Made by a program: the position numbers and the translations under genes | Part shown: positions 2,475 to 35,099 of the stretch, piece by piece | Layout of the letters: each line of letters begins with the position of its first letter | How positions within the stretch are numbered: the first letter of the stretch is position 1 | From: Alkalicoccus chagannorensis DSM 18086 | Lineage (GTDB): Bacteria; Bacillota; Bacilli; Bacillales; Salisediminibacteriaceae | Assembly: GCF_000429725.1 (NCBI RefSeq) | Contig: NZ_AUCK01000004.1 | Coordinates: 62,001 to 126,000 of the forward strand | Direction of reading: 5' to 3' | DNA: 64,000 nucleotides | The notes under the pieces: generated by a model | What the model saw: the letters and a program-made list of their open reading frames with translations, nothing else | What the model was told of the DNA's origin: nothing | Database searches by the model: none

Positions 2475-3071
2475 AACCTGTAATGAATTAGTAACTGGCT
2501 TATGTATAGGGTGGGTGGTCACAGAAAAAGTAAACGCTGCGCCTTAGGTCCAGTTGGATTTCCCAGACGGGTTCCGCCGCGTCGCCGCAGCGGAGGTTTC
2601 CCATTAAACCCGTCTCGGAGCCGTTGCCGGACTCCGGACTGGACTGCCACTTAGTACGCACTTTAATCCTTCTCCTGTGTCCAATGGAACAGTCTAGGGG
2701 TTTTCCCCGACAGCTCAATTCACCTTCTATCCTCTTTTGCAGAGCTGATTTCATATGATTGGCAATCATAATCCCCTCAGACTCCACTCAAGGCAGGCTA
2801 CGCTGTCCACGAGTGCCCAAAGACCCGCGTGACAGGTTCATACCCATGTACATACCAGAACAGGGGTGTCCCAGCATGCACATGGGCCTCCGCGGATGCA
2901 GGGTCTTCGCCCACATGCCTTTGTGGATCGCCCTACATCCTTTACTCCCAGTCAGGACCCAAAGCTGGGCGCCTCAAGCCAAGACTAGGAACTTCATCGA
3001 TGTGCCCTTTAGCGGATTTTTAGGCCCGCTTTCGAAGGTGCAGAGCCGACTAGAATACTGCACCACTCACC
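2475..3071 (-). ncRNA. ole: OLE RNA (ornate, large, extremophilic)
   Basis: About 600 nt without a credible gene on either strand, between ispA and oapA. The minus-strand transcript is full of GC-rich inverted segments. Examples are GACGGGTT...AACCCGTC near 2565-2615 and the CCATGTGCATG/CATGTACATGG pair near 2845-2890. Its length, its neighbours (ispA upstream, oapA then dxs downstream) and the host type match OLE RNA, a membrane-associated ribonucleoprotein RNA involved in stress tolerance. The 5' end is inferred from the promoter just upstream. The 3' end is approximate: I see no terminator, so it may be co-transcribed with oapA. The identification rests on synteny and structure, not on an alignment. 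Confidence 0.83.
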
Positions 3072-3077
3072 ATTATT

Positions 3078-3107
3078 ATTATACCACGGAGACTGATGCA
3101 GAGACAA
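3078..3107 (-). promoter_or_regulatory. Candidate promoter of OLE RNA
   Basis: On the minus strand TTGTCT (3107-3102) and a perfect TATAAT (3083-3078) are separated by 18 nt. The -35 begins 2 nt beyond the ispA stop codon, so OLE RNA can be made independently of the upstream operon. Transcription would start near 3071. Confidence 0.65.
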
Positions 3108-3109
3108 TC

Positions 3110-4003
3110 CTACTGCTCTCTGGTGCGGATGTAATGAGCGAGAGCGGAAAGAATGCTCGTGTCGGCATGCACGTGCTGGAGCGCCTCAAGCGCTGCTTCC
3201 GTATGTTCATCGAGCCGCTTTTTCGCTCCTTCGACGCCGAGCAGACGCACATACGTGTGCTTATGATTCGTCTGATCACTCCCGACAGGTTTGCCGATCA
3301 GCGCTTCATCTCCTTCGACGTCGAGCAGGTCATCCTTAATTTGAAACGATAGACCAATGTGACGGCCGAATAGATCCAGGTGCTTCTGCGCTTCTTCATC
3401 TGCACCGGCTGCGACCGCCCCCATCTGCAGGCCGACCGCCAGCAGATCCCCTGTTTTATGTTCATGAATGTTTTCCAGGTCCGCTGCAAGGATGTTTTCT
3501 TCCCGCTCCGCGAGCATATCTGCCATCTGTCCGCCGACCATCCCACCGGCCCCGGAAGCCCGGCTCAACTGCTCGATCAGCTTTACTTTCACCGCATCAT
3601 CCAGATGTTGATCCGCTGCGATAAGGTGAAAACTGTGCGTCAGCATGGCGTCCCCCGCTAGAACGGCGGTCGCTTCATCAAAACGGCGGTGGTTCGTCGG
3701 CATGCCCCGCCGCATATCATCGTTATCCATGGAAGGCAGATCATCATGAATCAGCGAATAGGTGTGCACCATTTCCAGCGCACATGCTGCTGCATCTCCC
3801 ATTACCGCCGGACGTCCGTAGCCGTGGAGGACAGCATACAGCAGCATCGGCCGGATCCGCTTCCCGCCAGCTTCCAGAGAATACAGCATCGCATCTTTTA
3901 ATCGCTGCGGTCCGGCAAGACTGTTGATCATCGTCGGGAACTGCTTTTCCACCCGTTGTTTATACTGTTCTATGAATTCCTTCAGCATCTGGTTTTCTTC
4001 CAA
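3110..4003 (-). CDS. ispA: Farnesyl/geranyl diphosphate synthase IspA
   Basis: Prenyl transferase that condenses IPP with DMAPP and GPP to give farnesyl diphosphate. It carries the first aspartate-rich motif DDLPSMD (residues 87-93), the GGKRIRP substrate motif (46-52) and the second aspartate motif DDLLD (224-228). At 297 residues it matches the B. subtilis enzyme (296). The start is TTG at 4003, behind GAGGAG that overlaps the xseB end; ATG at 3988 is an alternative. It lies 3 nt after xseB in the folD-xseA-xseB-ispA run and supplies the isoprenoid branch together with dxs downstream. Confidence 0.95.
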   Translation of the reverse strand: MEENQMLKEFIEQYKQRVEKQFPTMINSLAGPQRLKDAMLYSLEAGGKRIRPMLLYAVLHGYGRPAVMGDAAACALEMVHTYSLIHDDLPSMDNDDMRRGMPTNHRRFDEATAVLAGDAMLTHSFHLIAADQHLDDAVKVKLIEQLSRASGAGGMVGGQMADMLAEREENILAADLENIHEHKTGDLLAVGLQMGAVAAGADEEAQKHLDLFGRHIGLSFQIKDDLLDVEGDEALIGKPVGSDQTNHKHTYVRLLGVEGAKKRLDEHTEAALEALQHVHADTSILSALAHYIRTREQ

Positions 4004-4006
4004 TGA

Positions 4007-4237
4007 TTACAGCTCCTCTTCAGACAGCGTTGACAATGTCCCATCTTCAGACAGCACTTCTGTCATCTGTTTTTCCACTTTATGCAGTCGGTCGTGGCAG
4101 TCTTTCGACAGTTTCATTCCCTGCTGGAACATATTCATCGCTTCCTCCAGGGGCACATCCCCCTGCTCCAGTTTCTGCACGATCTCTTCCAGCTCTCGCA
4201 TGGACTGTTCAAAGCTTTCCTTTTTTTCTTCACTCAT
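4007..4237 (-). CDS. xseB: Exodeoxyribonuclease VII small subunit
   Basis: Small subunit of exonuclease VII, which degrades single-stranded DNA to oligonucleotides. The 76-residue acidic, helical protein contains [17 protein letters not shown] and [12 protein letters not shown], typical of XseB. The ATG at 4237 is preceded by a perfect AGGAGG and overlaps the xseA stop region by 8 nt, a sign of translational coupling. An upstream in-frame extension (MRRRRIL) has no ribosome site of its own and is left out. Confidence 0.95.
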
Positions 4238-33016: not shown

Positions 33017-33412
33017 ATGGGTGATGATCAAGTAAATAAAGTGCTGAAGGAAGGAATTTTAGGAAAGCCGGAGCTGAAGGCAGATGAGAAACGAGTATTT
33101 CTCGGCAACTTTGCTGAAAGAGTGAAAATTGCTCTGACCAACGGCCAGGTCTACAAAAAAGGCATGTATGAAGAAGTTGTCCATAAAATGAAAGACACCC
33201 AGCTCCACCTCTACATCAACGGCCGGCTTCCCTATCAATCTTACAACAACTACGTAAAGGAAGCGACGAAACACGGGGTGCCATTCACCATTCACGCGGA
33301 AGCCGGCGATACGCCGGTAGGACTCGTTCTGGCATCCGATAAGCCCGTATTTGAGCAGGAGAAGTTTATTGAGGACGACATATTCAAGCACGACATGGAG
33401 CACAGCGGCTAA
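33017..33412 (+). CDS. yueI: YueI-family protein (DUF1694)
   Basis: A 131-residue cytosolic protein with KADEKRVFLGNFAERVKIALTNGQV, LINGRLPYQSYNNYVKEA and GLVLASDKPV, the DUF1694/YueI pattern. In the family it is uncharacterised. The ATG at 33017 has GAAAGGAG upstream. Its 3' end overlaps that of the convergent rhomboid gene by 4 nt, with no terminator between them. Confidence 0.88.
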   Translation: MGDDQVNKVLKEGILGKPELKADEKRVFLGNFAERVKIALTNGQVYKKGMYEEVVHKMKDTQLHLYINGRLPYQSYNNYVKEATKHGVPFTIHAEAGDTPVGLVLASDKPVFEQEKFIEDDIFKHDMEHSG

Positions 33413-34578
33413 GATGCCTGCTGTGCTTCAATATCGTCTTGAAGCTCTTCATACTGTTCATCCGTCTCCAAGCGGAGCGCTTCTTCGATATACCTTTCAG
33501 CTTCGTCCATGTCTCCCTGTTCGTAGGCGATTACAGCGAGGTTGTAGTAGGCTTCGTGAAAATCGTCTCTGATACTGACTGCCGCGTCAAGCAGTTCTGA
33601 AGCGTTATCCAGATTTTCCTGATCTATCTCCAGCGAGGCGAGCAGAAAGTAGGCATTAGATTCAAGCATATCCTGGGGAATCGGCCCTTCCCCATCAGAA
33701 GGCATGTCCAGCACCTGCTGCAGGTATCGTTCCGCTGCCTCTGCTCTGCCAGCCTCCGCAGACTCTCTCCCCAGTTCATAGTAAACCGCCTGCAGCTGTC
33801 CGCCTTCGACTTCCTGAGAGAATCCGATATTCCATAGGAAGAGCCCCGCGGCCAGACCTACGGCTAAAGACAACGGCTGACTGACATGCACCCCACGACC
33901 GGGAAGTCCCGCTGCAGCTGCGGCCGCAAAGCCGCCCGCGAGTCCACCTATGTGGGCCCCGTTGTCCACCATCGGAACTAGAAAGCCAAAGGTTAAATTG
34001 ATGATTAAAATGATAACAACACTCATACCGAACGTACGGAAAAACAACCGGCGTTTGATCAGCCCAAAGTAAAGCAGAGCGCCGAACAAGCCGAAAATAG
34101 CCCCGCTCGCTCCTGCGGAAATATTGTCGTTAAAAACGAAACTGGCAATTGATCCTGACAAGCCGGCCGCGGCATAAATCCAGAGAAACCGTAACGAACC
34201 GAAAATTCTCTCGACTGCCGTCCCCAGGAAATAGAGGGCCAGAGAGTTCATGAATAAATGAAAGAAACCGATGTGCAGAAACATACTGGAGAAAAAACGC
34301 CACCATTCCCCCTCCAGGATAAGCGGATCGAATTTGGCCCCCATCTCCACCAGAGTCGTTGTTGCCATGGAACTGCCGCGCAGCTCCATCAACGCAAAAA
34401 CCGCGAGAATGACAGACAAGAGCACAAGCGTCAACACCGGCTTTCCGAACAAAAATGCCGCCTGATCTTCTTTCTGCTGACGGTGATATTCTCGTCGAAC
34501 CATGTGCCGTACCGTATCCCGGAACTGCTCTGTCTGCCCTTCCCCTTCCAGCTGAAAATCAGGGGTGAACGGGGGCAT
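33409..34578 (-). CDS. gluP: Rhomboid intramembrane protease, catalytic and TPR part of YqgP/GluP
   Basis: Intramembrane serine protease. About seven membrane segments span residues 48-290, with catalytic Ser158 in GASGAIFGL and His209 in NGAHIGGLAGG. A C-terminal TPR region follows (about 270-385, HEAYYNLAVIAYEQGDMDEAERYIEEAL). In B. subtilis YqgP this portion is fused to an N-terminal cytosolic domain. Here that domain is the preceding frame, and the two are separated by one in-frame TAA followed at once by this ATG (TAAATG). The upstream ribosome site is weak, so translation may depend on coupling. B. subtilis YqgP also takes part in processing the magnesium transporter MgtE. Confidence 0.88.
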   Translation of the reverse strand: MPPFTPDFQLEGEGQTEQFRDTVRHMVRREYHRQQKEDQAAFLFGKPVLTLVLLSVILAVFALMELRGSSMATTTLVEMGAKFDPLILEGEWWRFFSSMFLHIGFFHLFMNSLALYFLGTAVERIFGSLRFLWIYAAAGLSGSIASFVFNDNISAGASGAIFGLFGALLYFGLIKRRLFFRTFGMSVVIILIINLTFGFLVPMVDNGAHIGGLAGGFAAAAAAGLPGRGVHVSQPLSLAVGLAAGLFLWNIGFSQEVEGGQLQAVYYELGRESAEAGRAEAAERYLQQVLDMPSDGEGPIPQDMLESNAYFLLASLEIDQENLDNASELLDAAVSIRDDFHEAYYNLAVIAYEQGDMDEAERYIEEALRLETDEQYEELQDDIEAQQAS

Positions 34579-35007
34579 TTACTGCAGCTTCCACTCTGTT
34601 GCCAGAGGAAAAAGGACGCTCTCCAGTTCTTTTAATGGAAGTACAACCGTCCTGAACTGGCGCTGTCCTCCAGCAGTGAAGGGCAGTGCTCTTGATACAT
34701 CCGATTCGTAGCTGTCCACCGGTGTATACGGAGCCGTAACGACATTAACAACATTCGCCTTCCGGAGATTCAATTTTTTTCGAACCCTGTCTGAAGCTTT
34801 GTAGGCACGTTCAATATCTGTCCGCAGTTCCCGGCTCCAGTCATAACTTTTCAAATGAAACCGGAGGAGCTGGGTCTTCTTTCCGCGGTTATCTTCCAGC
34901 CAGATAATCGGTCCATCCTCATTCATGTGCACAATCTGCATCTGCTCTCTTTTCACTAAATGATAAATCAATTCCCAATACCTGAGCTCTGCATAGGCAT
35001 CGTTCAC
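34579..35007 (-). CDS. N-terminal cytosolic domain of YqgP/GluP, separated by a stop codon
   Basis: A 142-residue soluble protein aligning with the N-terminal domain of B. subtilis YqgP: LRYWELIYHLVKREQMQIVHM, WLEDNRGKKTQLLRFHLKSYDWSRELRTDIERAYK, RKANVVNVVTAPYTPVDSYESD and PLKELESVLFP. The GTG start at 35007 has GGGGGG upstream. It ends in TAA at 34581-34579, in the same frame as the following rhomboid start. Either the rhomboid is made as two proteins, or this is a recent nonsense mutation, a readthrough site or a sequencing error. Confidence 0.82.
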   Translation of the reverse strand: MNDAYAELRYWELIYHLVKREQMQIVHMNEDGPIIWLEDNRGKKTQLLRFHLKSYDWSRELRTDIERAYKASDRVRKKLNLRKANVVNVVTAPYTPVDSYESDVSRALPFTAGGQRQFRTVVLPLKELESVLFPLATEWKLQ

Positions 35008-35099
35008 TTTGTCACCCCCCTGCGTCCTTTCCAACGCCTCCTTATGTACCGTACCCTAAGCCTCTCGTAAAAAAACAGAGGTCAGAGATCGTTATAAGC

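Follow-up and report, generated by a model that had tools for sequence, protein, structure and literature searches.

A yqgP (gluP) rhomboid protease gene interrupted by one in-frame TAA directly before a conserved ATG: probably a young nonsense allele in Alkalicoccus chagannorensis

The window, by which we mean the whole stretch of 64,000 nucleotides of Alkalicoccus chagannorensis DSM 18086 that was analysed, carries on its minus strand one frame of 533 codons running from a GTG at 35007 to a TAG at 33411-33409, of which the only internal stop is a TAA (34581-34579, codon 143). An ATG (34578-34576) abuts this TAA, with 0 nt between the two, and the frame is divided into two ORFs (Table 1). An earlier note on this DNA had described a single TAA followed by ATG in an otherwise continuous frame, and its coordinates proved exact. 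We took GTG 35007 as the start; an in-frame TTG at 35034 lies upstream, with a Shine-Dalgarno (SD)-like stretch that is too close to it. Downstream of yqgP are the genes for a YqgQ-like protein and for a ROK-family (glucokinase-like) protein, both of which also lie beside yqgP in B. subtilis. A convergent DUF1694 gene (33017-33412, plus strand) overlaps yqgP by 4 bases (33409-33412), in the stop codons of both.

Table 1. Features of the interrupted yqgP locus (positions are those of the window)
Feature	Position	Strand	Remarks
First ORF, 142 aa, YqgP N-terminal cytosolic domain (NTD)	34582-35007	-	6R0J sequence and fold matches
SD-like stretch of first ORF	35012-35021	-	
In-frame TAA	34579-34581	-	Glu/Asp codon in 21/24 aligned family rows
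ATG right after stop	34576-34578	-	Conserved Met codon, possible reinitiation start
Second ORF, 389 aa and TAG	33409-34578	-	Linker helix, rhomboid core (Ser158, His209), TPR repeats

The split gene is yqgP/gluP, with NTD, rhomboid domain and TPR repeats in that order, an identity rightly put forward in the earlier note. The second ORF matches the rhomboid model PF01694 (8.7e-39) as well as several TPR models (PF13181 at 1.7e-13 and others). No Pfam model matches the first ORF at E 0.001, which does match the solved YqgP NTD (6R0J) by phmmer (E 5.4e-08), by a profile spanning the junction (E 9.4e-25) and by Foldseek (E 2.4e-07, TM 0.73 by query length). Foldseek also relates the NTD (34582-35007) weakly (E 0.02-0.05) to the nuclease folds of FokI and Can2, in agreement with the restriction-endonuclease-like core reported for the YqgP NTD (PMC7231995). 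Ser158 and His209 of the second ORF, which are S301 and H352 of the read-through protein and had been pointed out before, both fall at invariant columns of a 26-row alignment. The 507-aa YqgP (GluP) of B. subtilis (PMC7231995) has the same order of NTD, rhomboid with Ser and His, and TPR, the difference being that it is encoded by one ORF there and by two here. As the sequence stands, NTD and protease are not in one polypeptide, since the TAA intervenes. Whole-genome searches found neither a second copy of the NTD nor a better copy of either half; one further, weaker rhomboid match is present on contig C15 (258-codon frame, 36% identity).

Is the split old? The earlier note had suggested a comparison with close relatives, and the congeners examined lack the split. 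In the genus, 7/7 other genomes examined (two of them only 80% complete) have yqgP as a single open frame of 530-550 codons, which rules out an ancestral split gene. In the family, 33 of the 34 other genomes examined have an open yqgP frame of at least 517 codons, the exception being G034, in which yqgP is broken by one TGA and three TAG in one piece and of which the assembly is poor (76% complete, 6% contaminated). A TAA scored in another genome (G018) seems to be no internal stop, the match having apparently overrun a 558-codon frame at its end. At the level of the order, 397 genomes were drawn, of which 319 had a match at E 1e-50; among the matches listed (E down to ~2e-81), every one but that of this genome has a frame that stays open for 504 codons or more. 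The alignment at the junction, which covered 24 of these 34 genomes, shows a sense codon at the stop column in every row (Glu 15, Asp 6, His 1, Asn 1, Ala 1) and Met (21) or Thr (3) at the next position. By this comparison the stop is derived in this lineage, while ATG 34578, the Met of a conserved MP segment, is old and not a new start.

In five of the other seven genomes of the genus, the protein is the same as at loci that we compared by name, including those of A. daliensis (L032), A. luteus (L033) and A. saliphilus (L034), whose intact YqgP are 59-60% identical to the second half in the window. In the identical copies of these three loci (L007, L005 and L004, respectively), the same EWKL and MP segments flank the junction, and the position of the TAA is occupied by an Asp codon in L007 and L004 and by a His codon in L005. 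Among the best 80 of 100 named loci, 75 have open frames of at least 500 codons, four break off shortly behind the rhomboid domain and the remaining one, L110, is without NTD. The YqgP homologues at L107, L108, L109 and L111 are those that stop soon after the rhomboid domain, apparently (by eye) without TPR. L110 (Neobacillus sp. Marseille-Q6967, 2914-4056) encodes a rhomboid-TPR protein with a GASGAIFG motif; by eye, about 45 residues separate its start from the first transmembrane segment, much as in the second ORF. It is not a single-stop split, since no NTD is recognisable upstream (best E 0.043 with the NTD of the window, as against 1e-14 or better in two of three control loci). A split YqgP is not mentioned in the titles and abstract openings listed for the YqgP/GluP/rhomboid literature, which does not prove absence; literature searches returned nothing on gene fission by nonsense mutation with reinitiation and, judged by title, nothing related on rhomboids in Alkalicoccus.

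The stop could be a base-calling or assembly error, the gene being intact in the organism, since it is a single-base difference in a draft assembly of 38 contigs. We consider this rather improbable, as the genome is 99.92% complete and its other genes give no sign of poor assembly. We set the genes of a 1.4 Mb sample from a congener with a one-contig genome against 640 kb of the present genome. Of 206 non-overlapping matches with at least 45% identity, six contained a stop; in five of these it lies at a match edge (within the first 18 or last ~14 positions) and is probably due to differing starts or ends, and yqgP alone has a stop well inside the match. Three genes (L154_-1_7461, L184_1_1919 and L190_-1_15218) were matched only partly without touching a stretch edge. 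A smaller comparison over 240 kb of the genome gave one internal stop in 120 genes. The single case in 206 argues against a poor assembly as well as against a pseudogene-rich genome. An error would, moreover, have had to land in front of an ATG by accident: of the 1520 single-base nonsense changes that seven intact orthologues allow, 32 (2%) fall right before ATG and 61 precede ATG, GTG or TTG. The position of the stop is therefore mildly unlikely by chance, and it may reflect tolerance, if nonsense changes elsewhere leave no useful second product.

Structure prediction places the stop at a domain boundary, in a loop after the folded NTD. In a model of the read-through protein (pLDDT 88.8), residue 143 lies in loop 139-149, after helix 125-138, and helices 150-153 and 156-183 lead to what we read in the model as the first transmembrane helix (191-210). 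The NTD half is predicted to fold well alone (pLDDT 89.1, pTM 0.84). In the profile alignment, which is weak in this part, the stop aligns near residue 136 of B. subtilis YqgP, a place flanked in the solved NTD by helix 4 (121-128) and helix 5 (146-168) (PMC7231995).

The ribosome site of GTG 35007 is strong (-15.7 kcal/mol with the 16S tail, compared with -11.1 for TTG 35034), whereas that of ATG 34578 is at background level (-5.9 kcal/mol); the same place in seven congeners gives -3.5 to -7.2 kcal/mol and 28 internal ATGs span +1.3 to -12.1, so that no evolved ribosome site is seen at the second ATG. Nor does any of the seven promoter-like matches (shuffles gave 4.2, sd 2.1) lie right before the second ORF. 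With neither a ribosome site of its own nor a promoter-like match just before it, the second ORF would need reinitiation to be translated. Reinitiation is best at overlaps and very short distances: in E. coli, a +2 nt gap reduced it by 5, 20 and 70% in three native pairs that overlap (PMC10666635). An SD motif is reported to help without always being required; when it was removed in E. coli, three of five pairs lost 60-90% of their reinitiation, a fourth lost all of it and the fifth, which was not coupled, was unaffected (PMC6728339). Both studies used E. coli and Haloferax, not Bacillaceae. Of the features of coupled pairs, the very short distance (0 nt) is present here and a downstream SD motif is absent; in the light of the losses seen in E. 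coli, the output of the second ORF may be small.

These data bear on two further readings. A plain loss of function, in which the protease is no longer usefully made and the NTD is a remnant of a gene that is starting to decay, would fit the lack of a ribosome site at the second ATG, the presence of a second rhomboid-like gene on contig C15 and halves that could be intact merely because the change is young. It is nonetheless unlikely in our view, in that an abutting stop and start favours reinitiation and a stop at a predicted domain boundary, right before an ATG, looks as if it had been filtered for tolerance. Programmed readthrough or recoding of the TAA, which had been raised in the earlier note and would yield some full-length YqgP from a frame that is open on both sides of the stop, is very unlikely and finds no support: the RNA around the stop has no stable structure beyond that of shuffles (z -0.54 and -0.55), and a conserved stop, which with a stimulatory structure would mark such a case, is not what the 24 aligned family rows show.

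The two halves, which had looked intact in the earlier note, have kept their conserved positions and show no decay. In a leave-one-out comparison, the NTD half departs from 0/17 otherwise invariant columns (0-6 in intact relatives) and the second half from 1/92 (0-5 in intact relatives). The ratio of N- to C-terminal-half terminal branches is 0.70, as against 0.28-0.95 in seven relatives, a rough measure since the two trees differ in topology; neither this ratio nor the invariant columns reveal accelerated evolution of the NTD half. On the other side, in both halves alike, divergence from the outgroup is slightly greater for the window protein than for most congeners. Against 11 outgroup rows, the NTD half scores 0.485 in the window, compared with 0.495-0.518 for six congeners and 0.39 for L009, and the second half 0.501 in the window and 0.507-0.555 in seven congeners. 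On these sequence comparisons, the state of the halves fits either a young stop or continued selection.

Another reading is a fixed two-protein YqgP, with sensor domain and protease now separate, coupled and co-selected subunits. Besides the conserved positions, such an arrangement could draw on an NTD that is predicted to fold alone, a stop at a domain boundary, a start that abuts it and the domain losses that occur among the loci above. It is improbable all the same, being seen in one genome only, with all congeners intact and with neither an evolved ribosome site nor an overlap of 1 or 4 nt at the junction. The option of two coupled proteins contemplated at the outset stands only as a possible one: stop and start do abut, but no ribosome site has evolved. 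In its boldest form, the idea is of a split under selection that this species has fixed: a free sensor domain in the cytosol would act in trans on a separate rhomboid-TPR protease, in a ratio set by reinitiation, and a metal-sensing single protein would have been converted in one step into a two-component one; we hold this to be improbable.

The best explanation, to which we give a probability of about one half (0.52), is a recent nonsense substitution in one lineage, with the protease half perhaps made by termination-reinitiation and the NTD cut loose. Of the options first listed for this locus, the recent nonsense change is the one best supported, by intact relatives, conserved positions kept and a sense codon in 24/24 rows. 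A single substitution would have arisen in the loop joining the metal-sensing NTD to the helix before the first transmembrane segment; that the next codon is the old conserved Met would be either luck or the result of no other kind of nonsense change being tolerated. The stop would be young, and the mRNA would give (i) a free soluble NTD from the strong ribosome site and (ii) a membrane protease without NTD, made at a lower level by termination-reinitiation at the abutting ATG, its N-terminal Met probably being removed before Pro. On the whole the split is a real-looking, derived and probably young nonsense allele of a known gene, well defined and largely ordinary.

What such an allele would do can be gauged from B. 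subtilis, in which the NTD is reported to be needed for Mn activation and for the role of YqgP as FtsH adaptor, and in which MgtE cleavage fell threefold and Mn activation was impaired when the domain was deleted (PMC7231995). Both partners are present in this genome, with one match each for MgtE (478-codon frame) and for an FtsH-type M41 peptidase (675-codon frame), neither with a stop inside. If the split acts as that deletion does, basal activity of the protease would remain, and much of its MgtE cleavage, its metal activation and its FtsH-adaptor function would be lost, losses that would be avoided if the free NTD docks in trans. The split would, in other words, uncouple Mn activation and the adaptor role from the protease unless the NTD binds it in trans. 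If real and fixed, this would be a case in nature of a well-studied sensor-protease split between its domains by one base, which would let one test directly whether the NTD needs tethering; a recent allele, or an error, would count as ordinary variation at the strain level.

A last observation concerns the metal-sensing half itself. D50, the Mn-hotspot residue of B. subtilis YqgP (PMC7231995), corresponds to Ser54 here (34846-34848, minus strand), and Ser is also found in the 7 other genus rows of the alignment, so that metal sensing in Alkalicoccus may already differ from that in B. subtilis.
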